This document shows positions 2,443-42,744 of a stretch of 53,031 nt of DNA, in pieces. Both the position numbers and the translations under genes were made by a program. Positions within the stretch are counted from its first letter, which is position 1. The number at the start of each line of letters is the position of its first letter. Below the pieces are notes generated by a model. That model saw only the letters and a list, made by a program, of their open reading frames with translations. It did no database searches and was not told the origin of the DNA. Location of the stretch: assembly GCA_017504605.1 (NCBI GenBank), contig JAFVQW010000010.1, positions 1-53,031 on the forward strand. Direction: 5' to 3'. The stretch comes from Clostridia bacterium (GTDB lineage Bacteria; Bacillota; Clostridia; Oscillospirales; CAG-272).

Positions 2443-2785
2443 CAACAGAAAAGGGCTTTCCTTGCGGAAGCCCTTTTGCGACGGGAATTTGCTCCGCCTT
2501 ACGAGCTCTCCACGGGAGAGGGCGGAGCAATGTTACGAACCCGTCATTGCGCTTCGCGCAACGACGAGTTCGATGGTAGTCGCTTGCTCCAACAGAAAAG
2601 GGCTTTCCTTGCGGAAGCCCTTTTGCGACGAGAATTTGCTCCGCCTTACGAGCTCTCCACGGGAGAGGGCGGAGCAATGTTGCGAACCCGTTTCGTGCAA
2701 AGCACGAAAGCGGGTCGAAAGTGTCGCTTGCTCCAACAGAAAAGGGCTTTCCCTGCGGAAGCCCTTTTCTGTTGGAGCAAGCGAC
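2443..2785. repeat. Tandem structured repeats (about 147, 144 and a short third unit) carrying tRNA-Gly 3'-tail copies
   Basis: Three units start with CAACAGAAAAGGGCTT at 2443, 2590 and 2734. The first two are followed by an identical second hairpin (TTGCTCCGCC paired with GGCGGAGCAA) and then a diverged third hairpin. Units 2 and 3 are preceded by GTCGCTTGCTC, so 2579-2596 and 2723-2740 are inverted copies of 18 of the 24 att-core bases, which are the 3' end of tRNA-Gly plus flank. The AAGGGCTTTCC/GGAAGCCCTT hairpin resembles a Rho-independent terminator. Open frames across the array are low-complexity shadows. It looks like a non-coding dispersed repeat, possibly grown by duplication of the tRNA terminator region. 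Confidence 0.75.
2723..2785. repeat. Perfect 27-bp inverted repeat abutting attL
   Basis: The left arm (2723-2749) and right arm (2759-2785) are exact reverse complements around a 9-nt loop. The right arm overlaps attL. Read on the - strand, this is the tRNA-Gly tail followed by AAAAGGGCTT...AAGCCCTTTT, so it probably held the host tRNA's own terminator before integration. Confidence 0.85.
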
Positions 2786-2791
2786 GGGAAT
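2768..2791. other. attL core (24-bp direct repeat)
   Basis: The 24 bases beginning TCTGTTGGAGCAAGCG are identical to 42721-42744; the flanking bases differ on both sides. They equal the last 19 nt of tRNA-Gly plus 5 nt of flank, reverse complemented. This copy carries only the tRNA tail, so it is the phage-distal remnant. Confidence 0.93.
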
Positions 2792-3161: not shown

Positions 3162-3210
3162 AAAAACGCAAAAGATAGTGACCAAAAGCACTTTTGTTTG
3201 TGGTATAATA
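3162..3210 (+). promoter_or_regulatory. Late promoter copy 1, with internal CAAAAG-CA-CTTTTG dyad
   Basis: A perfect TATAAT (3204-3209) is preceded by TGTGG and, about 18-20 bp upstream, by GTGACC. The dyad CAAAAGCACTTTTG lies between the -35 region and the -10. The 49-bp block recurs at 16540-16588 with a single inserted T. It drives the terminase operon, through the terminator at 3256. The dyad may be an activator, operator or antiterminator site. Confidence 0.75.
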
Positions 3211-3255
3211 GACTTAACCAAATAAAAATCAAAGTGCCATATACCCATTGAGGTC

Positions 3256-3299
3256 AGAGCCATAGTACACGATATGATGTACATGGCTCTTCTTTTTTT
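3256..3299 (+). terminator. Leader terminator between the late promoter and the terminase genes
   Basis: The stem AGAGCCAT/ATGGCTCT (3256-3263 with 3283-3290) is extended by GTAC/GTAC after one bulged A, and is followed by TCTTTTTTTG. It lies about 45 nt after the predicted transcription start and before the terminase small gene, so it would block late transcription unless read through. Confidence 0.75.
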
Positions 3300-3326
3300 G
3301 CTTTGGATTATGAAAGGAGTTTTACT

Positions 3327-3815
3327 ATGAGCAAAAAGAAGCAGCCAAAAGAACCGCGAGCGGATAACGGTCAATTTCTCCCCGGGAATACTGTCGGCCT
3401 GAATACCAGATTCCAAAAAGGACACGATTCTTCCAGTAAATACAGTGCATCGTATCCCGAGCAGATGATTAACTACTTTCTATCCTCCGAGCACGCATTC
3501 CCCACCTTTGCCGGCTTTGGAGTAAGTATCGGAGTGCTTATTGAAACGCTCGAGAGATGGCGAGACAAGTACCCCCAATTCAAGAACGCCTACGCGCTAT
3601 GTAAGCAGATTCAGGAGGACAGGCTTTGCAACGGTGGCCTAAACCGAATGTACGACCCGTCTATGGCTAAATTTCTGCTCCAAAATAACCACGGAATGCG
3701 TGAGAAGAGCGAGCAAGAAATTAATGCTACCGCAAATGGCGCCTTTAAGGTTGAAATTTCATATTTCGACGAGGAGAACGATAATGCCGGGAATAAAGCT
3801 TCAGATAACACGTAA
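3327..3815 (+). CDS. terS: Terminase small subunit (P22 gp3-like)
   Basis: The protein has 162 residues. It starts at the ATG at 3327 after GAAAGGAG. It should bind phage DNA and recruit the large subunit for headful-type packaging. The basic, Gly/Asn-rich N-terminus is followed by a helical DNA-binding region (FGVSIGVLIETLERWRDKY, about residues 65-85), which resembles the HTH of P22-type small terminases, then a segment ending YDPSMAKFLLQNNHGM, common in this family. The tail is acidic. The gene overlaps terL by 32 nt. The call rests on motif resemblance plus position directly before terL. Confidence 0.8.
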   Translation: MSKKKQPKEPRADNGQFLPGNTVGLNTRFQKGHDSSSKYSASYPEQMINYFLSSEHAFPTFAGFGVSIGVLIETLERWRDKYPQFKNAYALCKQIQEDRLCNGGLNRMYDPSMAKFLLQNNHGMREKSEQEINATANGAFKVEISYFDEENDNAGNKASDNT

Positions 3816-9206: not shown

Positions 9207-9227
9207 TTGCAATTTTTAGGAGGCGAA

Positions 9228-12200
9228 ATGTCAAGTTCATTTGCTTTGACAAAAAACAACATTATATCAAGCTTTGGCAAGAATACAAATACAGGTAAAA
9301 AAATCAGTTCGTTTTCTTCCGCAACGAAAAAAAGCCCCGTACCTATAAACGTATACAGCAACGAAAAGGCGGCCGAGGTAAAGAAGAATAACGGCGGTAT
9401 TCTCGGCGGCGCTGGATATCTCGGAGAAAAGGTCCTCCTCGGCGCTCTGCAGAGCCTCGAGGGCATATGGGACTACACTACCGCCGGAATCGCAAAGCTC
9501 ATAGGTGAGGACGAATGGGCTGAGAGGCAGATGGAGGACGACTGGCTCAATTACTCTCACCCTGAGGAGTGGTTCAACCCCGGCGACGGCTGGAGAGTTG
9601 CGGGCGACGTTGCGGGCGGTATCGGCTCTACCCTGCCCTCGATAGCTGCCGCCCTTGTCCCCGGCATTGGCATCGGTGCATCGGTAGCAACCGCGGGCCT
9701 TGGCGCCGCGGGTAATGCGACGAAGGAAGCATACAGAGAGACGGGCAAGCTCACGGGCAAGGAATTTACTTACGGTGCGCTCGTCGGCGGCACTGAGGCG
9801 CTCGTAGAAAAGCTGACGGCGAGTATCGGTATGGGCACGGGACGAATAGTGAAGTCTATTGCCAAGCGCGGCACGGCAGAGGCGGGACAGATGATAGGCA
9901 AGACGGTGCTTACACGGCTCGGTGCAGACTTTCTCTCCGAGGCATTTGAGGAAGGACTCGCCGAGGCTCTCGCCCCGCAATACGCAAAGCTTACGTACAA
10001 CCCGAACGCAAAGAATGCAAGCATTGAGGAGATATCCTATTCCGCATTCGTTGGCGGTCTCTCGGGTCTCATTATGGGCGGTGCGCGCACGGGTATAACC
10101 TCGGTGAAGAATACGAGCCGCGGCAATACTATCGTAAACGAGGGCGGCGCCGAGGGTGTTATACAGCTCTCGGAGAAGCTCGCCGAATACGAGGACAAGC
10201 ATAAGACGGGTGACGACACCTACGCCGAAATATCGAAGACGGCGAAGGAGCTCCGCGCGAGCCTCGAGAAGACGGGCGGTCAGATTACCACCGTCAAGCA
10301 GAGGAGCATGCTCGGCAGGCTCGAGGAGTTGAATACCCTCGCGCCCTTAAAGCCCGCTATACTCCGCTCCGCTATATACGCGGCACAGAATGCAGAGCAG
10401 CTCGCCGAGCAGTTTGCGGGTGCCGAATTAACAGACGAGAGCGGAAACGCCATAAAAATCACGGCAGAGGCGCTACGAGAGGGATATAACCCGAATGACC
10501 CCCGCTCCGTCAATTCGGCGCTCAGAACTAATTCTGCCCTGCGTACCGTAGCGGTATCTCGCGCCGTTGGCGAGCTCACGCTCAATACCCGTAAATACGC
10601 CGAGGCAGTACGCTCGGGCGAGAGAAATATAAATTCCTACGACCTCGGTAAATTCGTCGAGACGGCAACAGAGGACGAAATCCGTGCCGTTTCCGAGGCT
10701 CTCGGCATTGAGGACTGGAACGACGTATCCCCCGAGGACCTGAACGCAAGGCTCAACGAATACCGCAAGGGCGAGGCATACCGGGCGGGACACAGACAGG
10801 CCCTCGCCTTCCGCGAGGCTGAAAATTCTCCCGCAAATAAAAAAATACCGCAGAGGCCGAACTTCAAGGACGGCGTATCGCGGTATAATGACGGTGTTAA
10901 TAATATCGGTATTTTGCGCGAGAATGCGAAGTATACAATCTACGACTACAACAGCAAGCAGCGTACGAGGCAGCTCTCCTACACCGAAGCAAGAGAGGTA
11001 CTCGAGAACTATCACGAGGGCACGGGAGCCGAGGCGGTGAGAGCTGCTTCATCGGTGACGGCGGAAGTGACTAATGGCAATATGGCAGAGCCCGCATCAG
11101 TTACCGAAGGTGTGGTCTCTTCTAAGAGAGCCGGTCGAAACGTAATAGATTTGAGTAATGATAGCGAGCTGACCCGAGCAATAGGCAAAACGACGGGCTC
11201 CGGCAAGTATAAAATTATTCAGCAGTATATTCTTGGCGCTCTCGGGGAACAGCCAATCACACTCAGCGACGGGAAGAGGGCTGTCGTAGATAAGAGTGAC
11301 GCATTGCATATTGCTAACAAGTCTGGTGATGTCAAAACATCTCAAATAGCAAAAATCAAGGAGATAGTCGAGAATGCTATTCCGTACGCAGAAGACACAC
11401 AAGTCGAGCATAACAAGTTCAACTATTTTCGCTATTATGAGGCTCACGTCAAATACGGTGATGAAACCTTCCCTGTTTACCTTAACGTGGGGAGAGCAAT
11501 AAACGATGGCAGTTACCACATTTACGATATTACGAAAAAAATAAAAGACACCGCAAACCGAATTAACGGTTTCGAGCGCCCCAAACCAAATGAGGGCTAC
11601 GCTCAAGAAAACGATGTCTTCGTTAATAGTATACCCCAAAACGCCGAAAAAATCAACCCCTCTGACAAAAATTCTTCCGAAAGCGGTGAAAAAACTGCAA
11701 AATCGGCGAAGAAAACCAAGTATCAGGAGCAGACCGAGGCGGCAGACAAGCTCGCATCGGAGAACGTCAAGGAATACTCTTCCCTGCCCGACGAGGATAA
11801 GGTAAGAGTAAGAAAGGTTATAAGGCAGGCACAGACCAGGGGCTTTAGCGAGAGCGATACTCTTCTCCTCGCTCGCGTGGCAGCTAAATCGGGGCTGGAT
11901 ATCGAGATAAGCGAGAAAAAGTGCATCCGCACAGAGCTCGACGAGAACGGAAAGGAGAAGACCGTCACCGTTGACGGCCTCTATGACGTTAAGACGGGGC
12001 GAATAGTAATAAACCCGAACGGAACTCGCTCTGCCGCTCGCATTCTCGGTCACGAGGCATTCCACGCTATATTTGGTGGGCTAAAGAATAGCCGTCAGGG
12101 CGCGAAGGCGCTCGCGAGGGTCGTTTACGCCGCCGCACAGCATCTTGACACTCCTGACGGAAAAAACAGGCTCACTAAGGCTGAAAGAATAGAGCTCGCC

Positions 12201-15200
12201 TACCGTAATCAGAGTGACGAGGTAATCCTCGAGGAGCTTGGCGCTCATTTCGTTGAGTGCTTTACCGACGAGGGCTTTATGCGAGAGCTCGTAGGCGAGA
12301 GCCCGAGCCTTAAGGATAAATTCCTCTCCTTCTTCGGCGGTGCCGTTACCGCATATTCCGATGATGCCCGTCTTGCCTCAGCTGCACGCAAATACAGAAA
12401 CCTCTACAAGAAAATGTTTGATGCCTTAGCTGCCTACAAGAATAGCGAGCGTGGAGTTATGATAGAGGCTCTCGCGGCTAATTCCGATGCGCTAACGAGC
12501 ACGAATAGCGAAAATATGAAGGTTAGCGGGAAGAATGACGGAAAATCATCTACTAAAACGAACACAGATGTTGATACTGATACAAGATTTGCGCTCCCTC
12601 TTGGAGACGGAATAGTCGATGCAAGGTCGGTGACCGAGCAAGATGTAAGAACCCTTCTCGATAACGCCTTCAATAAGCAATACAGGGACGGCTCATATAT
12701 TCCTGTAAGAGTTAATACGCCGTCCGTTCTCATCGAAGCGGCACAGAGCCTTGGAAAGACAATAGACGACCTGCCCGTAATTCTCAACGTCGACAAGGCT
12801 CGTCAGATGATGTCGTCTCAGAGAGAGTGGGCGCTGGAGCAAAAGCGCGGCACAGCTCACGACTTCACCGTAGACGATGTCATATCCCTTATCAAAGCTA
12901 TGGACGACCCGAAGCAAATTATCTACCAATCTGCAGACGAAAGATATGTCGAGGTCGTAGAGTTCGAGACAGCAGAAAAGACAAAAGCCGTCGCAGTACT
13001 CGAAATTGGGGAAAACAAGAACCCTGAGTACCTCAACGGCTATAATGGCGGTTTTTATCAGGTGCTGGTTACTGCATTTGAGCCAGACACGGGATATGTG
13101 GAGAGCTTGCTGGGAAAAGACGGTAATATCCGAATTTACCCAAAAAAGAAGAAAGGCTCTTCGCAAAGAGGTTCAGGCAACAGAGTGCCGTCGCATTTGA
13201 ACGAATCACCTTTCGCTGATAGTATACCCCAAACCGAGCAAAAAAGCAATAGTTTTCCCGAAAAAAGTTCGAAAAATTCTTCCAACGAGCGCTATGCCCT
13301 CGACCTCACGAGCGAAGACACCTCGCTCGGCTATATCTCTACCGCGTACGGCGGCGAGAGCTGGCTCGGACGGATTACCGAGCAAATTAAGAGCGAGGGG
13401 GTCGGAAGGACCGCAAAAGGCATATACAAAAGCGGCAAGGAGACACTATCCACGGGAATTCTCAACACACAGATTCTCTTCACCAACGAGCAGGCGGGTA
13501 TCGAGAAGGCGGGCAAGGCCCTCGGTGTAGATAACGTCGAGGAGCTCGTTCAGCAGATGAGAGCATCTACAAACGCCGCGCAGACTATGCTCGGAGACGT
13601 TCAGTACATACACGTAAACGGTAAGCTCGTTCGCGTTGGTGACGGCCTCGCGACTATTACCGGCGAGGTTAAGGCTCGCGGAGATATTTACTACAACAAT
13701 TGGCAAATGCTTCTCTTCCATCAGCACAATATCGACCGAATGTCGCTCGAGGAGCGCTCGATAGCAAGAAACGAGGCTAACCTCGAGAGGCTAAAGGGAG
13801 TAACCGAGCGCCTCGAGGAAATAGCGAAGCGCTTAAAGGCTATCTACGACGAGCAGGTTCGGCTCCGTGCGGTCGGCGACAGAGCGGCACAGCTCGAAAT
13901 CCAAAGGCTCGCTAACGAGAAGAAGGGGCTCGTAGCTGAAAAGGCGGCACTCGACAAGGCGGCTAAGGGGCTTCGCGAGGAAATACAGAATTTCACGCCC
14001 GAGGAAAATAAGCCCGTTTTCGGTAAAGAGGTTGACGGCGAGATGGTTCCCATCACCGCCGAGGAGAGCCGCGCCGAGGTCGAGAGGCTTTTCGCCGCAG
14101 CTCCCGAGATGGCGGAGTATGCCGAGAAGCTGTATAAATTCCTCGATGCGCTTCAAAGAGAGAGGCTCGATGCAGGTCTCATCGACGAGAAGCTCTACAA
14201 CGACCTTAAGGATAAATACCCGCACTACGTCCCCACCTTTCGCGACGAGCAGAACCAGGGGAGCCGCGGTATCAGCGGAAAGTTCAATATAAAGGTCAAG
14301 CAGGGTATCAGAGCGGCGAGGGGCGGCTATTCCGAGCTGCAACCGCTTGAAATATCCATTTCTCGTATGGTCGAGGAGACGATGAGCGCCGCGGCACACA
14401 ATCGTACGGCACGAGCGCTCGCGAAGGCGGCAAAGGGCAAGGAGAACGGGCATATCGCCGAGCTATCGAGAAGAAGGCTAACGTCCGACGAGGCCATCGA
14501 GGGCTCGGAGAAAAAGCGCCTAAGCAACCAAATCACCTATTACGAGGGCGGCGAGGAGGTTACAGTATCCGTCTCGCGCGAGGTGTTCGCGGGCTTCGAT
14601 GCTTTTAATTCGAAGGTCTACGATAATACCCTGCCCGTTAAGGCGGCGACCGCGGCGAATAATCTGTTTAAGCGGCTCGTTACCTCGGCTAACCCCTTTT
14701 TCCTCGTAAGAAACTCCATTAAGGACCTTCAGGATGCGGGCATTAATACCAGATACGGTAAATCCTTCGTTAAGAATTACGCGAGAGCGATAAAATTTAT
14801 ACTCTCTAACGACACTATGTGGCAGCTCTACCGTGCGGGTGGCGGCTTAAGCAACACCGTGTTCGAGTACAACAAGGGCTTTACGGGTGGCATTACCAAG
14901 ATGGGCTTTGCCGCCTCGGAGAACAAGTTTATCCGCTTCATAACCTCTATGGAGCGCGCTAATATGTTCGTAGAGCAGCTCCCGCGCTTCGCCGAGTTCA
15001 TAAGCTCGGTAGAGGCGGGAAACACCGTAGAAAAGGCGATTCTCGATGCCGCAGACGTAACGACCAACTTCGGCCGCACGGGCAAGGTGACGAAGCTGCT
15101 TAATCAGACGGCTATTCCCTTCCTTAACCCTGCGATACAGGGTATGAGCAAGATGGTTAGAAACCTCACCGATGCCTACGACGTCGAGCACCCGAGGAAG

Positions 15201-16535
15201 ATGTTTAAGGCCTACCTGACTCTCGCACTTAAGGCAGCTATTGTCGGCGTTATTCCACAGATGCTTAACCAGATGCTGCTCGACGATGACGAGGACTACA
15301 AGGAGCTGCGCGACAGCGATAAGGAAAACAACTATATTTTCCGTGCGGGTGACAGCTTTATTAAAATCCCGAAGGGCCGCGTTGCCGCGGTGCTCTCGGG
15401 CCTTGTCAACAGGACCTCGCAGGAGCTCAGAGGAGAGGGCGCGGACTGGAAGGACTACCTCGATAGCGTAATATCGAACGTTACCCCGGTAGAAAATTTC
15501 TCGCGCTCAATCATAGCACCTATAAGGGACGTCAAAAATAACGTAACCTGGTACGGCGGGACTATTGAGGGGGCGCAGTTCGAGAACACGAGACCGAGCG
15601 AGAGGTACGACGAGTCTACGAGCTCCGTCGCGATAGCACTCGGCAAGGCGTTCAACTACTCTCCTAAGAAAATACACTACCTTATCGACCAGTACAGCGG
15701 CGTTATAGGAGATGTTCTCCTTCCCGCCACCACCGAAAAGGCGGAAAAGGATATTATATCCGCAAACTTCGTCATCGACCCCACGAGTCAAAACAAGCTC
15801 TCCGACGAGTTTTATAAGCTCTACGAGGAGGCACAGTACGCGAGGACCGACGGCGTTGTAAGCGCTAAGTACCGGGTTAAGTATCTCAACAAGGTTAAAG
15901 AGGCTGTGAGCGAGCTATACGACGAGAAGTCGAAAATACAAAAATCAAGCCTTACGACCGCCGAGAAGCTCGAGCAAATCCGCGTGGTACAGGCGCTTAT
16001 AAACGAGCTCTACCGAAGCACTCTAAACGGTTATGAGGATTACTGCACCGCTATTGAAAAGACGGCGGGTCAGTATGACGAAAATACCGAGGAAAAATTA
16101 CGGCAGACCGAAATTACCCGAATAGTGTTCGGCGCAGAGCGCGCGCTCAAAGAGTATAACGGGAGCGTGTATGCGAAGGCAAGCACGTTCTCGGCGGGCG
16201 TTGACTGGGATACCTATTACCGCTTTTATTTCGCTACCGCCGACATCACCGCCGACACCGACAAGAACGGCAAGACGGTAAGCGGAAGCCGTCGGAAGAA
16301 GGTCGTCGCGGCAATTAATTCGCTCGGGAATATACCCCGCGCAGAGAGGCTCTTGCTTCTCGCCTCGCGCGGCTATTCCCTGTCCGACGGAGATTTCGGC
16401 TACCGTACCGCAGAGGCGGCGAAAAAGGCGCTTCTTCGCTACATTTTCTCGCTCAAGATTACGAGGGAGGAAAAGGCGGAGCTCGCCGCGGCGTGCGGTT
16501 TTACCGTCAAGGGTAACAAAATCAGCCTAAAATAA
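9228..16535 (+). CDS. Giant polyvalent protein with metallopeptidase-like, MuF-C-like and LPD38-like regions
   Basis: The protein has 2435 residues; the ATG at 9228 follows TTAGGAGGCGAA. Such phage polyvalent proteins are packaged and injected with the DNA. Visible order: a Gly/Ala-rich hydrophobic region (about 120-300) that could cross membranes; a compact domain (about 650-800) resembling LPD3/nuclease-type inserts; an HEAFH zinc-peptidase motif (942-946); a region (about 1115-1310) resembling MuF C-terminal toxin-like domains; coiled coil (about 1500-1600); and LPD38 with TSANPFFLVRNSIKDL near 1820. SIPQ-containing linkers (NSIPQNAE, DSIPQTEQ) follow the two insert domains. It likely protects or modifies the early infected cell. 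Individual domain names are tentative. Confidence 0.8.
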   Translation: MSSSFALTKNNIISSFGKNTNTGKKISSFSSATKKSPVPINVYSNEKAAEVKKNNGGILGGAGYLGEKVLLGALQSLEGIWDYTTAGIAKLIGEDEWAERQMEDDWLNYSHPEEWFNPGDGWRVAGDVAGGIGSTLPSIAAALVPGIGIGASVATAGLGAAGNATKEAYRETGKLTGKEFTYGALVGGTEALVEKLTASIGMGTGRIVKSIAKRGTAEAGQMIGKTVLTRLGADFLSEAFEEGLAEALAPQYAKLTYNPNAKNASIEEISYSAFVGGLSGLIMGGARTGITSVKNTSRGNTIVNEGGAEGVIQLSEKLAEYEDKHKTGDDTYAEISKTAKELRASLEKTGGQITTVKQRSMLGRLEELNTLAPLKPAILRSAIYAAQNAEQLAEQFAGAELTDESGNAIKITAEALREGYNPNDPRSVNSALRTNSALRTVAVSRAVGELTLNTRKYAEAVRSGERNINSYDLGKFVETATEDEIRAVSEALGIEDWNDVSPEDLNARLNEYRKGEAYRAGHRQALAFREAENSPANKKIPQRPNFKDGVSRYNDGVNNIGILRENAKYTIYDYNSKQRTRQLSYTEAREVLENYHEGTGAEAVRAASSVTAEVTNGNMAEPASVTEGVVSSKRAGRNVIDLSNDSELTRAIGKTTGSGKYKIIQQYILGALGEQPITLSDGKRAVVDKSDALHIANKSGDVKTSQIAKIKEIVENAIPYAEDTQVEHNKFNYFRYYEAHVKYGDETFPVYLNVGRAINDGSYHIYDITKKIKDTANRINGFERPKPNEGYAQENDVFVNSIPQNAEKINPSDKNSSESGEKTAKSAKKTKYQEQTEAADKLASENVKEYSSLPDEDKVRVRKVIRQAQTRGFSESDTLLLARVAAKSGLDIEISEKKCIRTELDENGKEKTVTVDGLYDVKTGRIVINPNGTRSAARILGHEAFHAIFGGLKNSRQGAKALARVVYAAAQHLDTPDGKNRLTKAERIELAYRNQSDEVILEELGAHFVECFTDEGFMRELVGESPSLKDKFLSFFGGAVTAYSDDARLASAARKYRNLYKKMFDALAAYKNSERGVMIEALAANSDALTSTNSENMKVSGKNDGKSSTKTNTDVDTDTRFALPLGDGIVDARSVTEQDVRTLLDNAFNKQYRDGSYIPVRVNTPSVLIEAAQSLGKTIDDLPVILNVDKARQMMSSQREWALEQKRGTAHDFTVDDVISLIKAMDDPKQIIYQSADERYVEVVEFETAEKTKAVAVLEIGENKNPEYLNGYNGGFYQVLVTAFEPDTGYVESLLGKDGNIRIYPKKKKGSSQRGSGNRVPSHLNESPFADSIPQTEQKSNSFPEKSSKNSSNERYALDLTSEDTSLGYISTAYGGESWLGRITEQIKSEGVGRTAKGIYKSGKETLSTGILNTQILFTNEQAGIEKAGKALGVDNVEELVQQMRASTNAAQTMLGDVQYIHVNGKLVRVGDGLATITGEVKARGDIYYNNWQMLLFHQHNIDRMSLEERSIARNEANLERLKGVTERLEEIAKRLKAIYDEQVRLRAVGDRAAQLEIQRLANEKKGLVAEKAALDKAAKGLREEIQNFTPEENKPVFGKEVDGEMVPITAEESRAEVERLFAAAPEMAEYAEKLYKFLDALQRERLDAGLIDEKLYNDLKDKYPHYVPTFRDEQNQGSRGISGKFNIKVKQGIRAARGGYSELQPLEISISRMVEETMSAAAHNRTARALAKAAKGKENGHIAELSRRRLTSDEAIEGSEKKRLSNQITYYEGGEEVTVSVSREVFAGFDAFNSKVYDNTLPVKAATAANNLFKRLVTSANPFFLVRNSIKDLQDAGINTRYGKSFVKNYARAIKFILSNDTMWQLYRAGGGLSNTVFEYNKGFTGGITKMGFAASENKFIRFITSMERANMFVEQLPRFAEFISSVEAGNTVEKAILDAADVTTNFGRTGKVTKLLNQTAIPFLNPAIQGMSKMVRNLTDAYDVEHPRKMFKAYLTLALKAAIVGVIPQMLNQMLLDDDEDYKELRDSDKENNYIFRAGDSFIKIPKGRVAAVLSGLVNRTSQELRGEGADWKDYLDSVISNVTPVENFSRSIIAPIRDVKNNVTWYGGTIEGAQFENTRPSERYDESTSSVAIALGKAFNYSPKKIHYLIDQYSGVIGDVLLPATTEKAEKDIISANFVIDPTSQNKLSDEFYKLYEEAQYARTDGVVSAKYRVKYLNKVKEAVSELYDEKSKIQKSSLTTAEKLEQIRVVQALINELYRSTLNGYEDYCTAIEKTAGQYDENTEEKLRQTEITRIVFGAERALKEYNGSVYAKASTFSAGVDWDTYYRFYFATADITADTDKNGKTVSGSRRKKVVAAINSLGNIPRAERLLLLASRGYSLSDGDFGYRTAEAAKKALLRYIFSLKITREEKAELAAACGFTVKGNKISLK

Positions 16536-16539
16536 TCCC

Positions 16540-16588
16540 AAAAACGCTAAAAGATAGTGACCAAAAGCACTTTTGTTTGTGGTATAAT
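16540..16588 (+). promoter_or_regulatory. Late promoter copy 2
   Basis: This block is identical to 3162-3210 apart from one inserted T (16548). It has the same CAAAAGCACTTTTG dyad and TATAAT at 16583-16588. It sits just after the stop codon of the polyvalent protein and upstream of the Com-like gene, so it can give capsid genes a second transcription start within the late operon. Confidence 0.75.
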
Positions 16589-16604
16589 ATATACGGAGGT
16601 GCTT

Positions 16605-16802
16605 ATGGTTAACATTTTCCCAACAGAGCACACAGAGGTAACCGATATACGCTGTCCTCGCTGCAGGTGGGTAGTTCCACACGTGAAGCTCAAGCGCGAC
16701 AGCATAGTTTCGGGATTGACCTTTAGGTGCGGCAGGTGCCGCGAGCTTTTAGAGCTGGAGGCAAGACCAATATTAAAAAAAGAACAGAGCCAGAGCCCAT
16801 AG
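16605..16802 (+). CDS. Com-like small zinc-finger protein
   Basis: The protein has 65 residues; the ATG at 16605 follows ACGGAGGTGCTT. Two CxxC knuckles (C17/C20 in DIRCPRCRW and C42/C45 in FRCGRCREL) flank a short beta region, the pattern of Mu Com-type zinc-binding regulators and of rubredoxin-like knuckles. Com binds mRNA to control translation, but whether this protein does is not shown. It is the first gene after the second late promoter and is followed by a terminator (16806-16850), so it may be made early from that promoter and act on expression of the following capsid genes. Confidence 0.6.
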   Translation: MVNIFPTEHTEVTDIRCPRCRWVVPHVKLKRDSIVSGLTFRCGRCRELLELEARPILKKEQSQSP

Positions 16803-16805
16803 AGG

Positions 16806-16850
16806 CAGAGCCATTTAAGCCTATTGAGGTTAATTTGGCTCTGTTTTTTT
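16806..16850 (+). terminator. Intrinsic terminator after the Com-like gene
   Basis: The stem CAGAGCCA/TGGCTCTG (16806-16813 with 16836-16843) has a partly paired inner arm and is followed by seven T. The loop contains TATTGAGGT, and the leader terminator at 3256 is preceded by CATTGAGGT. It lies between the second late promoter and the scaffold/capsid genes. Confidence 0.75.
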
Positions 16851-16877
16851 ATTTTTCAGGAAAGGAGAATTCAGAGG

Positions 16878-17012
16878 ATGAAAATCGGTAACAACCCCTA
16901 TGCAACCAATGCCGGCGGCCACATCAAGGCGCCGAAGAATACGTCCCAGGGACAGCCTAAGTCTACCGTAGTAACCGGTGACGACCTTCGTGTTAAGAAG
17001 GGTAAAAAGTAA
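16878..17012 (+). CDS. Small basic phage protein
   Basis: The protein has 44 residues. The ATG at 16878 has AAAGGAG 11 nt upstream. The sequence starts MKIGNNPYATNAGGH, is rich in Gly, Asn, Pro and Lys, lacks hydrophobic core segments and ends in a Lys cluster (RVKKGKK), so it is probably disordered and might bind nucleic acid. It lies just before the scaffold gene in the capsid cluster. No family function is known to me; it is kept because of its ribosome site and tight operon spacing. Confidence 0.6.
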   Translation: MKIGNNPYATNAGGHIKAPKNTSQGQPKSTVVTGDDLRVKKGKK

Positions 17013-27844: not shown

Positions 27845-28177
27845 TTACGTTAGCATTAATGCCTCGGCAACCGCATATATAACCTTTCTCTTGCGTGCGT
27901 AATAGGCGCTCTTGCACATATAGGTTGAGGCGGGAGAATAGGCGTAGCCTCTTCTCGTCTTTATATCGGTAAAGAGGTCTTGTCGGACGATAGGCTCGGC
28001 GTGTAGCAGGGCCTCGTCTATTGCCGAGTTGAGCCGCTCGTAGCATGCACGCACGTCCTCCCTCACGCTTTTCGTTTCAATGCACAGACGGCGCCTGTCG
28101 TAGTCGATACAGATATCTATCACTATATCCACAACGCCCCGGGGAAGGCCCCATCTGTCCCTCGCCCTTCCTCTCAT
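27845..28177 (-). CDS. Possible late-gene transcription regulator (ArpU/RinA-like position)
   Basis: The protein has 110 residues; it starts at 28177 after GCAGGCGAGAAA and overlaps the upstream gene by 4 nt. The C-terminal part (SPASTYMCKSAYYARKRKVIYAVAEAL) resembles the end of ArpU/RinA-type phage regulators, where a helix ending in RRK contacts DNA. The first half is an amphipathic region with VDIVIDICIDYDRRR. It is the last gene of the early operon, the usual place for the late activator or antiterminator, which would act on the two matching late promoters. Family membership is weakly supported. Confidence 0.4.
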   Translation of the reverse strand: MRGRARDRWGLPRGVVDIVIDICIDYDRRRLCIETKSVREDVRACYERLNSAIDEALLHAEPIVRQDLFTDIKTRRGYAYSPASTYMCKSAYYARKRKVIYAVAEALMLT

Positions 28178-37155: not shown

Positions 37156-37400
37156 ACGCGTTCCTCACCGAGAAATACGAAGGTGACCGTTTTCTTTACG
37201 AGCGGGGGCATAAGGCTTCTGACGGGGTGCATTTCGTTCGGCAGCTTGGTAGTAGTTCTCTTTCCCATCGCGCAGGCGAGAGTGTACTCTGCTTTGAAGT
37301 TTTCCATAGCTTCGACGAAGGAAGAATAGAAAAAGCTCCTCCCCTCGCGCTCGAGGTCGCGCACCTCGGTAATACCCTTTTCCGTTCTGATTTTAAGCAT
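37152..37400 (-). CDS. Hypothetical early protein
   Basis: The protein has 82 residues, starting MLKIRTEKG with GGAGGGGTC upstream. It mixes beta and helix (REGRSFFYSSFVEAMENFK, then VKKTVTFVFLGEERV). No motif recognised. It overlaps both neighbours by a few bases, as expected for an early operon gene. Confidence 0.62.
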   Translation of the reverse strand: MLKIRTEKGITEVRDLEREGRSFFYSSFVEAMENFKAEYTLACAMGKRTTTKLPNEMHPVRSLMPPLVKKTVTFVFLGEERV

Positions 37401-37755
37401 TAGGGGACCCCTCCTCGATAGGATTAACGTAAAGAGCCAAAAGTGAAATAAAATGCGAGTTGCTCGGCTTAGACTTATAGAAGCTCACCGAATTTCCATA
37501 GAGCTTCTCTATAGTGTCGGGCGACAGATTAGCGTAGCTGCACTCTGCCGCGTACCTGATTGCCCGCTCTACGCGGCTGTAGGTCGTTTTGAATTTTTTC
37601 GCAATGGCGGGATAAATATCCTTTGTCACCATCGCGGGAGCCGCGGCGCCGAGCGTAAGCGATACTGCCTCGTAAAGATACGCGTATCCTCTTAAATTCG
37701 GTGCTACTCCAAAGGTCATAAGCGCCTCGGTAATCGTTCTTTTTTGCTTTTTCAT
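37393..37755 (-). CDS. Stand-alone Spo0A C-terminal-domain protein
   Basis: The protein has 120 residues and lacks a receiver domain. Nearly its whole length matches the Spo0A effector (DNA-binding) domain: LMTFGVAPNLRGYAYLYEA, then TKDIYPAIAKKFKTTYSRVERAIR (in parts IYPAIAKKF, SRVERAIR), and SNSHFISLLA near the end. In the host, Spo0A controls entry into sporulation by binding 0A boxes. A phage copy without the phosphorylation domain could bind constitutively or compete. It sits in the early operon, so it would be made at induction. Confidence 0.82.
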   Translation of the reverse strand: MKKQKRTITEALMTFGVAPNLRGYAYLYEAVSLTLGAAAPAMVTKDIYPAIAKKFKTTYSRVERAIRYAAECSYANLSPDTIEKLYGNSVSFYKSKPSNSHFISLLALYVNPIEEGSPNA

Positions 37756-39525: not shown

Positions 39526-40125
39526 ATGGCGTATTTTGACAACTTAAGAGCTCTGCGATTATCAAGAGGTTGGACACAAGCAGAGCTCGCGAAATTCATG
39601 AACATAGCACCGTCTACTATTGCTATGTACGAACGCGGTGAACGCGAACCCTCAATCGAAATGCTCTGTCGCTTTGCCGATATTTTCAATGTAGATATGA
39701 ACGCTCTATATGGAAAAAGACCTGCAAGCCCTGTTAAAATCCCCGTTCTCGGCTACGTAGCCGCTGGAATACCCATCGAGGCTATAACAGATGTTCTCGA
39801 CTACGAGGAAATTTCTCCCGATATGGTAAAGGACGGTAGCGAATACTTTGCCCTTCGTATCAAGGGCGACTCTATGGAGCCGAAGATATCCGACGGCGAC
39901 GTTGTTATCGTACGTAAGCAGACCACCATTGACTCGGGCCAAATAGGTATCGTCTGTGTTAACGGCGACCACGCGACCTGTAAGAAGGTCATCTTTCAGC
40001 CGAGCGGTATACTGCTCCAGCCCTTTAACGTGGCACATGCACCGCAGTTCTACACCGCCGACCAGGTTGCCGAGCTGCCTATAACCATCCTCGGCAGAGT
40101 TGTTGAATTAAGGGCTAAATTCTAA
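39526..40125 (+). CDS. CI-type repressor with LexA/S24 self-cleavage domain
   Basis: The protein has 199 residues; ribosome site AAAGGAGAGTG. The N-terminal XRE HTH (residues 7-60, LSRGWTQAELAKFMN) binds the operators. The C-terminal S24 domain has the cleavage bond A80-G81 (YVAAGIP), nucleophile Ser116 (KGDSMEP) and general-base Lys153. RecA-stimulated autocleavage after DNA damage should inactivate it, so the prophage is expected to be SOS-inducible. It is the first gene of the lysogeny operon. Confidence 0.95.
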   Translation: MAYFDNLRALRLSRGWTQAELAKFMNIAPSTIAMYERGEREPSIEMLCRFADIFNVDMNALYGKRPASPVKIPVLGYVAAGIPIEAITDVLDYEEISPDMVKDGSEYFALRIKGDSMEPKISDGDVVIVRKQTTIDSGQIGIVCVNGDHATCKKVIFQPSGILLQPFNVAHAPQFYTADQVAELPITILGRVVELRAKF

Positions 40126-41365: not shown

Positions 41366-41388
41366 AGCCCCACCGTTTTGGTGGGGCT
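41366..41388. terminator. Hairpin between the Mrr-like gene and the integrase
   Basis: A 9-bp perfect stem (AGCCCCACC/GGTGGGGCT) has a GTTTT loop. No clear U run follows on either strand, so it may be a weak terminator or an mRNA-stabilising structure that separates cI-operon and int expression. Confidence 0.5.
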
Positions 41389-41410
41389 TACAAAAAGGAA
41401 AAAGTATAAA

Positions 41411-42547
41411 ATGCCAAGTTTTCACAAGGATAAAAATTCGGGGCTCTGGAGCTGCCGGTTTCGCGAGGTAGACCTCGAGACAGGTAAAACCCGCCAGCCT
41501 CGCCTCTCGGGCTTTAAAACGAAAAAAGAGGCGCAATACGCCTACGAGGACTATATAACCGAGTATGCAAAGAAGAAAGAGGCCTACGGCAAGAATAAAG
41601 CGCAGGCAAAAACGGCGTTAGATATGACCTTCGGTGAACTGACGAGGCTATTCTTCAAATTCAAGGAAGGGCGCATTAAGGACACCACCTACTACGACCT
41701 CAGCAAGAAGATGGAACGCCGCATTTTTCCCTTCTTTGAAAAAAAGAAAATTCGAGACATAACCCCCGCTGTTATACTTGAGTGGCAAGACACGGTTAAG
41801 GATATGAGCTACAATTATCAGAAGGGACTCCATACGCTTCTCTCCGCGATTTATTCTTACGGAGAGCGATATCACGATATACCAAATGTAATGAATAAAA
41901 TAGAGCGCCCGCGCAAAAAGCCCGAGGACGTCAAGGAAATAAGCTTCTATTCCCCCGAAGAATTCGAGCAATTTATAAAGCACGTAGAAAAGAAACAGTA
42001 TCGCACGTTCTTTGAATTTTTGTACATTTCAGGGTGCCGCCGAGGAGAAGCCCTTGCGTTAACCTGGAGCGACGTAAACCTAACCACCGGCGCCGTCAGT
42101 ATAAAAAAGAGCGTGGCCTTCAAGGTGCACGATGGAGATAACGCGTACCGCATTACCTCGCCTAAAAACACCTCGAGCATACGCACCATATATATTCCTG
42201 TATTCTTTAGAGAGCGCCTACAGGCTTACAAGGCATGGCAAGCGCAAAACTACACAACCGAGGGCTTTATATTTTGTGGCAGCTCTCCTCTGCCCGCGAC
42301 GAGTATAGACCGCGAAATAAGAACAGCATCAGCTGCCGCCGGTGTCAAGCGTATCGGTGTTCACGGCTTCAGGCACTCCAACGCCTCACTTCTTTTGCAT
42401 AAAGGAGCATCAATCGTAGCCGTTAGCAAGCACCTCGGCCACAAGAACACACAGCAAACGCTCAACACTTATGCACATATGCTGCCCGACGACCGTTCTA
42501 TCATTCTAAACAACCTCGAAACACTTAACTCACTTTTGAGCGAGTAA
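41411..42547 (+). CDS. int: Tyrosine-type phage integrase
   Basis: The protein has 378 residues. I used the ATG at 41411, where the family's N-terminal MPSFHKDKNSGLWSC begins. An AP2-like arm-binding domain (residues about 1-45) and a SAM-like core-binding domain precede the catalytic domain, with R210 (GCRRGEAL), H318-x-x-R321 (HGFRH), H344 (LGHKN) and nucleophile Y354 (TYAHM). It inserts the phage into tRNA-Gly and excises it with help from an excisionase. It lies about 170 bp from attR. Confidence 0.95.
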   Translation: MPSFHKDKNSGLWSCRFREVDLETGKTRQPRLSGFKTKKEAQYAYEDYITEYAKKKEAYGKNKAQAKTALDMTFGELTRLFFKFKEGRIKDTTYYDLSKKMERRIFPFFEKKKIRDITPAVILEWQDTVKDMSYNYQKGLHTLLSAIYSYGERYHDIPNVMNKIERPRKKPEDVKEISFYSPEEFEQFIKHVEKKQYRTFFEFLYISGCRRGEALALTWSDVNLTTGAVSIKKSVAFKVHDGDNAYRITSPKNTSSIRTIYIPVFFRERLQAYKAWQAQNYTTEGFIFCGSSPLPATSIDREIRTASAAAGVKRIGVHGFRHSNASLLLHKGASIVAVSKHLGHKNTQQTLNTYAHMLPDDRSIILNNLETLNSLLSE

Positions 42548-42692: not shown

Positions 42693-42723
42693 AGAGTGAC
42701 CAAGTTTTGTACTCGGTCACTCT
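42693..42723 (-). terminator. Phage-supplied hairpin downstream of tRNA-Gly
   Basis: A 9-bp perfect stem (AGAGTGACC/GGTCACTCT) lies two nt beyond the tRNA 3' end on the - strand, followed by TTACTATTTAATTG. It overlaps the first three bases of attR. It could replace the terminator left behind at attL, and might also stop int transcription on the + strand. Confidence 0.6.
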
Positions 42724-42744
42724 GTTGGAGCAAGCGACGGGAAT
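42721..42744. other. attR core within tRNA-Gly
   Basis: This is the second copy of the 24-bp direct repeat. It covers the last 19 nt of the tRNA gene on the - strand (T-arm 3' side, acceptor strand and CCA) plus 5 nt of flank, so the tRNA sequence is preserved after integration. Confidence 0.93.

Follow-up and report, generated by a model that had tools for sequence, protein, structure and literature searches.

A prophage carried by a member of the Clostridia uses nearly the same late promoter twice, and each copy faces an intrinsic terminator, which raises the question of how polymerase gets past these barriers into the virion genes and which phage product governs the step. The prophage lies between attL and attR within the window, the whole stretch of 53,031 nt that was analysed (Table 1). 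Its late genes occupy the + strand up to about 27.6 kb in the order terS (3327), terL, portal, a gene for a 701-aa protein, a gene for a 2442-aa polyvalent protein, com, scaffold and capsid, where the scaffold gene is putative and is named by position alone. The early genes lie on the − strand, and the last of them encodes P0001. Promoter 2 is located after the 7.3-kb polyvalent protein gene. Beside attL, positions 2432-2791 hold three tandem repeat copies, 147 and 144 nt apart, that combine a sequence resembling the 3' end of tRNA-Gly with inverted repeats and are perhaps remnants of repeated integrations.

Table 1. Positions of the prophage features and of the two late regulatory units in the window.
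Feature	Position	Strand	Basis or remark
attL core	2768-2791		24-nt direct repeat shared with attR (42721-42744), which coincides with a tRNA-Gly 3' end
Proposed activator box AGATAGTGAC, late promoter 1	3173-3182	+	G[T/C]GAC comparison; ends 21 nt before the −10
Dyad CAAAAGCACTTTTG, spacer of promoter 1	3183-3196	+	in both window copies
Extended −10 TGTGGTATAAT, late promoter 1	3199-3209	+	direct reading
Conserved 5' leader element GTGCCATAT	3234-3242	+	leader alignments
Com-target-type hairpin ACC-CATTGA-GGT, leader 1	3243-3254	+	RNAalifold, pair counts, motif of PMC6483171
Leader terminator 1	3256-3299	+	centroid −17.3 kcal/mol, z about −3; homologous to terminator 2
terS, first late gene	3327-3815	+	PHROG terminase small subunit
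2442-aa polyvalent protein gene	9207-16535	+	LPD38 and LPD3 domains; upstream of promoter 2
Proposed activator box, late promoter 2	16552-16561	+	identical to copy 1
Dyad, spacer of promoter 2	16562-16575	+	present in copy 2
Extended −10, late promoter 2	16578-16588	+	one of two in the window
com-like zinc-ribbon gene, P0002 (65 aa)	16605-16802	+	homologues in the same place in G035, G430, G458 and G459
Conserved 5' leader element, copy 2 (GAGCCAGA)	16787-16794	+	leader alignment; overlaps the com 3' end
Com-target-type hairpin GCC-CATAGA-GGC, leader 2	16795-16806	+	RNAalifold, pair counts; includes the com stop codon
Leader terminator 2	16807-16850	+	−21.6 kcal/mol, z −5.2; ahead of scaffold and capsid
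P0001, candidate late activator (Ltr/ArpU-like)	27845-28177	−	family alignment, position in relatives; last early gene
C1/S24 repressor	39526-40125		prophage
Integrase	41378-42547		prophage

The 49-bp block that a first, sequence-only reading of this DNA had picked out is duplicated as described, with 3162-3210 matching 16540-16589 apart from a single inserted base, and 41 nt of it (3170-3210 and 16549-16589) are identical without gaps; a 40-nt pattern with up to 3 mismatches found no third copy in the host genome. The perfect −10 claimed for each copy was also recovered as an extended −10 that occurs only these two times in the window. The −35 hexamer claimed alongside it was not: neither copy has a consensus −35, and a sigma-70 scan lists neither promoter. 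The spacer dyad does occur in both copies and nowhere else in the window, but it was said to lie between a −35 and the −10, and it has no consensus −35 before it and is not conserved in relatives. Conservation lies instead upstream of the spacer, where 7 of the 10 promoter copies in the comparison (G409 left out) have G[T/C]GAC with its end exactly 21 nt from the −10; both G430 copies and L188 lack it. Promoter copies are more alike within a phage (45/46, 37/46 and 38/42) than between phages (26-32 matches). The two copies in the G458 phage have box and −10 in common and differ in the spacer, which makes a protein site at the dyad improbable, and the dyad was dropped as one. With the conserved box upstream of an unconserved spacer, the earlier proposal of a Q-type binding site in the spacer is not upheld.

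An intrinsic terminator does follow each promoter copy, as had been proposed, but in copy 2 a 65-codon ORF lies between the promoter and the terminator. A simple terminator scan that allows only loops of 3-8 nt lists neither. Leader 1 (3216-3320) aligned with the end of com, terminator 2 and the following ribosome-binding site (16756-16880) with a score of 31.5, compared with a best of 18.5 in 5000 pairs of dinucleotide shuffles, and the leader 2 stretch was the best match of leader 1, itself excepted, among the windows tested; with T tails and ribosome-binding sites removed, the score was 22.5 against a best of 20.5 in 5000 shuffles, a small margin. Promoter, leader and terminator thus form one unit, with com placed between promoter 2 and leader 2, and the duplicated unit is larger than first described, its three parts being homologous between the copies; homology between two leaders is found in other phages as well. 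The motif ATTGAGGT, reported earlier near both terminators, precedes the stem on its 5' side in copy 1, whereas copy 2 has it within the terminator loop. It was dropped as a shared element; in the alignment, the copy-1 motif corresponds to CATAGAGG in copy 2 (16798-16805), and in leader 1 ATTGAGGT is part of a conserved leader hairpin. Terminator 2 lies between both promoters and the capsid gene, and the scan returned no promoter-like + strand site between terminator 2 and the capsid genes. Read-through must therefore occur somehow, and regulated read-through is likely.

Comparison of the leaders revealed a common anatomy: a GCC(A) stretch, a 3-bp hairpin with a C-NNN-GA loop, a terminator stem (AGAGCC...GGCU) with a variable loop, and a T run. 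The conserved core is the 3-bp hairpin, which abuts the terminator stem and whose loop is closed by C-G. CCNNNGAG on a 3-bp stem is present in all six leaders of the window, G035 and G430 phages, a set assembled without the motif, and RNAalifold returned the hairpin from these six unprompted, with C-G, U-A and G-C pairs at the middle position. Over 11 leaders of 7 phages (two each from the window, G035, G430 and G458, one each from G459, G460 and G409; L190, L191 and L192 left out as near-duplicates) the hairpin is 97% paired. The covariation score of hairpin plus terminator was 0.298, compared with 0.126 ± 0.025 for shuffled alignments, none of which (0/500) reached it, and at most 0.049 for slid versions; in the same 11 leaders, neither pairs changed on both sides (observed value reached by 33/500 shuffles) nor the number of pair types (231/500) went beyond the shuffles. 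The row for the viral locus L241 is misaligned by one base and has a 5-nt loop.

A Com-type hairpin abuts 12 of the 601 distinct terminator-like hairpins in the loci retrieved, 10 in late units and 2 in weak other cases, and five of the ten late units come from loci fetched without the motif (WIN_1, both of G035, G430_1 and G409). This filter missed leader 2 of the window and of G430, and a control with the reversed motif gave two abutting cases, one of them in late unit L225. The motif by itself is common, with 9 and 10 matches in the window on the + and − strands, respectively, at a stem of at least 3 bp, and the argument for the hairpin rests on place and conservation, not on the motif alone. 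Minimum-free-energy folds of both window leaders lack the 3-bp hairpin. In these computed folds the terminator stem is longer, because the GAG side of the hairpin is paired to the T run, and a bound hairpin and an extended stem would therefore be mutually exclusive alternatives. Immediately 5' of the hairpin (3234-3242 and 16787-16794) there is a GTGCCATATA-like stretch in which GCC is invariant in 11/11 aligned leaders.

The leader hairpin matches a published target. Mu-type Com is reported to recognise CC(N)2-3GAG in a hexaloop that has a C-G closing pair and a variable stem of 3-4 nt (PMC6483171); the same source cites another group for a preference of Com for duplex over hairpin. The stretch of Mu analysed contains one such hairpin, with a 4-bp stem, inside com and starting 27 nt before the mom start. 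From this match we infer that a Com-type protein may bind both leaders.

The small gene between promoter 2 and leader 2 encodes a candidate for this role. Like Mu Com, its product P0002 is a four-cysteine zinc ribbon of about 60 aa encoded beside its predicted target RNA: C17, C20, C42 and C45 are invariant in five com-family members, a target-type hairpin lies at or just past the gene's 3' end, and com ends just before the element in G035, G430, G458 and G459. Homology to Mu Com at the protein level is not firm. P0002 matched a PHROG translational regulator weakly (E 0.0079) and gave no match to Pfam Zn_ribbon_Com (PF10122) at E 0.1 or 0.01 or to Cys_rich_KTR (PF14205), and the com product of L241 did not match PF10122 at 0.001; Mu Com itself matches that family at 2.7e-9. 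The com-family profile aligned with Mu Com at 62.7% probability over 21 columns, with different cysteine pairs paired. In 36 loci of relatives, many of them partial, neither com nor the 2442-aa polyvalent protein was matched (E <= 1e-4). Searches of named phages with P0001 and P0002 by tblastn gave no match or only matches at E 6-10, and peptide patterns for the two proteins had no match in viral contigs.

Related phages show that the arrangement is not a peculiarity of this prophage. The portal protein was matched in 46/394 genomes of the order (E <= 0.001) and in 57/69 genomes of the genus (E <= 1e-20). Through portal homology rather than the motif, we found the full paired layout in phages of two same-genus hosts (G035:C28 and G430:C55), both with the order P0001 homologue, unit 1, terS, terL, portal, large gene, promoter 2, com, leader 2 with terminator, scaffold and capsid; parts of the 2442-aa protein were matched in both between portal and scaffold. 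Further phages carry both units (G458) or one (G459, G460 and G409). A degenerate leader pattern matched six viral contigs, of which L187 and L189 have a P0001 homologue, promoter, leader with terminator and terS in order. In the L187 record the second unit of G458 appears as a weak 22.5-bit match 15.8 kb further on, directly after com and with a matching promoter box. In G409, from another genus of the same family, the element directly follows the P0001 homologue (27.9 bits). A late promoter with a leader terminator, present twice, is thus borne out and is conserved in related phages. The search for the block itself had a divided outcome: the paired promoter/terminator layout was found, but a near-exact block was not, its 32-nt core being absent from 58 relatives at up to 3 mismatches and having no exact match in viral contigs.

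The P0001 family is linked to these promoters, as befits the candidate regulator that the sequence-only reading had named, but the lambda Q-type spacer site through which it was supposed to act is not supported. A homologue lies directly upstream of the first unit in G035, G430, G458, G460 and G409, where the order of regulator gene, promoter and terminator holds as far as the G409 contig reaches; P0001 of the window sits at the other end of the prophage from unit 1. The family occurs in 55/69 genomes of the genus (E <= 0.001), and by hand tally 49 of the 69 have both P0001 and portal, 8 portal only, 6 P0001 only and 6 neither. Two of eight family members match phage_arpU (TIGR01637) weakly (best E 0.07), and P0001 itself does not. 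Compared with the Ltr/RinA/ArpU activators of Gram-positive phages, which are described as about 130 aa long, P0001 is shorter (110 aa), and the window promoters differ from theirs in carrying leader terminators. With the conserved DNA box upstream of the promoter spacer and the spacer dyad not conserved, P0001 resembles a late activator more than a lambda Q.

We propose a paired late-gene switch in which promoter, leader (with its Com-type hairpin) and intrinsic terminator together make up each unit. P0001, as an Ltr/ArpU-like protein, would bind the box upstream of the −10 spacer and activate both promoters. Most transcripts would then end at terminators 1 and 2 unless further help arrives, and promoter 2 would yield mainly a short com message, since com precedes terminator 2. 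The Com-like protein would in turn bind the C-NNN-GA hairpin in both leaders and hinder folding of the terminators, much as Mu Com is thought to open an inhibitory structure beside its own hairpin, so that polymerase passes into terS and into the scaffold and capsid genes. We consider this account, with P0001 as activator of both promoters and Com as the factor that allows read-through, somewhat more probable than all others together; it builds on the homology of the units, the conserved layout, the covariation of the hairpin, the motif match and the gene order. The conserved regulatory cassette is real and the antitermination logic is supported; as its agent we prefer a Com-type RNA-binding regulator to a Q-like mechanism, which we do not favour.

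Known systems resemble parts of the proposal. In regulation of the LicT/BglG type, an RNA-binding protein on a leader hairpin beside a terminator decides read-through. The hairpins there overlap an arm of the terminator, the protein fold is other than Com-like, and the operons are metabolic; the window shares with them a predicted protein-bound leader hairpin beside a terminator but not the overlap with its arm. In Mu Com-mom control, too, the phage encodes a small zinc-ribbon protein at its RNA target or slightly upstream, and the target is a CCNNNGAG hexaloop hairpin closed by C-G next to an inhibitory RNA structure. Mu Com, however, opens a translation start, whereas the adjacent structure in the window is a transcription terminator, and the window has two target structures, one of them in trans to com.

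The main competitor is a lambda-Q-like mechanism in which P0001 binds promoter DNA and loads onto paused polymerase, which then ignores both terminators. The Q gene sits upstream of lambda PR', and P0001 homologues hold just this place relative to the first unit in the five phages named above, with regulator gene, late promoter, leader terminator and late operon following one another in these relatives as in lambda. The leader terminators are, moreover, conserved together with the promoters. Because of this gene order a lambda-type Q retains some standing, yet we regard it as unlikely. The conserved DNA box lies upstream of the spacer rather than within it, the spacer is not conserved and there is no consensus −35; by eye, the initial transcribed sequences of the two window copies have nothing obvious in common, hence no obvious common promoter-proximal pause element. 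P0001-family genes also stand beside the structural clusters L056 and L059, where no terminator was called between promoter and terS. Unlike lambda, the window has two units, an extra candidate RNA-binding protein and a conserved leader hairpin. A mechanism based on Q alone would not predict a conserved Com-target-type hairpin next to both terminators, and its presence suggests that the Com-like protein provides read-through, with P0001 as activator.

The same anatomy, with a hairpin that abuts the terminator and in the window overlaps the 3' end of com, would also fit a brake, in which binding of Com strengthens termination and limits expression of com and of the late genes. We consider this improbable: it is hard to see why a phage would express, late and at both units, a brake on all its virion genes, and Mu Com is an activator (PMC6483171). 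No better a chance is given to passive or translation-coupled attenuators, with either a fixed partial read-through or ribosomes that cover the 5' arm of the terminator as they finish com. The com stop codon does lie within the leader 2 hairpin, but no gene is evident in leader 1 ahead of the terminator, covariation of the hairpin extends over both kinds of leader, and com ends just before the element in four related phages. A cis-acting antitermination RNA of the HK022 put or Tn916 canT type, which changes polymerase without a phage protein and would suit a conserved short leader RNA beside terminators, including the GTGCCATATA-like stretch, is the least probable of all, as the element abuts one terminator, its loop matches a protein-binding motif, and canT was studied as a 452-bp fragment with some shorter fragments active (PMC11658703). 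Tn916 canT likewise provides antitermination in a Gram-positive mobile element; it is a cis-acting RNA elsewhere in that element, and the passages of PMC11658703 on it describe no zinc-ribbon partner.

If the Com-dependent switch is correct, the Com zinc ribbon, known as the translation switch of Mu mom, gains a second role at terminators, where it decides whether polymerase passes into the late genes. The repeated late promoter after a 7.3-kb gene would be explained, and the two units would work as a two-step timer, an activator followed by a self-encoded read-through factor. The top-ranked results in openly licensed literature include no description of a Com-type protein that works at a late terminator. 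A phage of a gut bacterium with a Com-like gene inside one of two such units points to a new mode of late-gene switching.

Signs of a wider pattern were sought with the covariance model R2, which matched in 23/394 genomes of the order (E <= 0.01), the window's own genome and G409 included. The contexts of 21 order-wide matches and of the viral L241 were read by eye (L212, L222 and L227 left out). In twelve of the 21 the match lies across the 3' end of a small zinc-ribbon ORF or immediately after it (L209, L211, L213-L218, L226, L219, L225 and L232), and in L210 it immediately precedes apparent HNH, TerS and TerL genes; two have no zinc ribbon beside them (L220 and L221) and six look like chance terminators (L223, L224 and L228-L231). 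Scores outside the genus are modest and several matches are chance-like. The viral-contig and many of the order-wide matches are not independent evidence for the loop, since the pattern and the model contain the loop motif. Pfam confirmed the KTR assignment for the four zinc-ribbon proteins tested, among them two com-like proteins before other terminator elements that matched PF14205 at 2e-6 (L256) and 2.9e-13 (L251) and stand for the L219 and L225 sites. The com profile found matches in 19/394 genomes (E <= 0.01), mostly partial ones, and a filter then picked out a small zinc-ribbon ORF in 4 of 20 loci (the window, L251, L256 and L258); L251 and L256 have the CCNNNGAG hairpin at the terminator, and L258 has it only inside the terminator loop. 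Most conjugative-type KTR elements have a loop that is longer or is closed by G-C, not C-G.

We take the KTR loci to resemble Tn916-type elements, and we know of no report on the function of the KTR gene in such elements. The matches outside the genus at the 3' ends of KTR genes, and of com-like genes ahead of apparent late operons, make a general link between small zinc ribbons and terminators plausible. We tentatively extend this to a broader idea, one that we think more doubtful than not, in which Com/KTR zinc ribbons are widespread self-encoded terminator regulators of Clostridia mobile elements, each encoded just ahead of a hairpin and terminator under its control, both at Tn916-like KTR genes and in the late operons of phages unrelated to one another. 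The Com-dependent switch itself, if correct, offers small zinc-ribbon genes located ahead of terminators, in phages as in conjugative elements, a function open to direct test.

In terS leaders of relatives where a promoter is recognisable, no terminator was found after it, except for a weak one in L042 (−6.7 kcal/mol), and a Com-type hairpin upstream of terS was absent from 10 of the 11 com-less loci examined; in the eleventh, L062, such a hairpin is present and is not beside a called terminator. Upstream of terS, the com-less clusters L040, L042, L046, L047, L055 and L062 have TACTTAC followed after 18-19 nt by a −10; L039, L041 and L056 instead have AATGAGCCC, then 20 nt, then a −10. By eye, several late clusters akin to that of the prophage (terS, terL, portal, scaffold and capsid) lie among apparent host genes, as in L055 with L108 (G000:C8), L062, L056 and L059, and in part also in L040, L042, L046 and L047, where L046 has a repressor-like match. 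The flanks read for L055 and L062 contain no phage early genes, L056 and L059 have kept a repressor-like gene and a P0001 homologue, and host sites are apparently common to L055 and L040 and to L056 and L059. These clusters look like domesticated phage or gene-transfer-agent clusters.

Three P0001 homologues lie outside late clusters, at G000:C8:53636-53956 (L096), G005:C11:63372-63683 (L073) and G313:C22:32853-33176 (L075), in genomes that carry a domesticated cluster elsewhere. Those in G000 and G005 follow a small ORF and are divergent from a C1/XRE-type repressor, and a repressor match is also found near the one in G313; a separate regulator locus is possible. Another early phage gene of the window (37393-37755) encodes a stand-alone Spo0A C-terminal DNA-binding domain (PF08769, 2.6e-27), and a homologue of it lies about 1.6 kb from a P0001 homologue in G096:C17.
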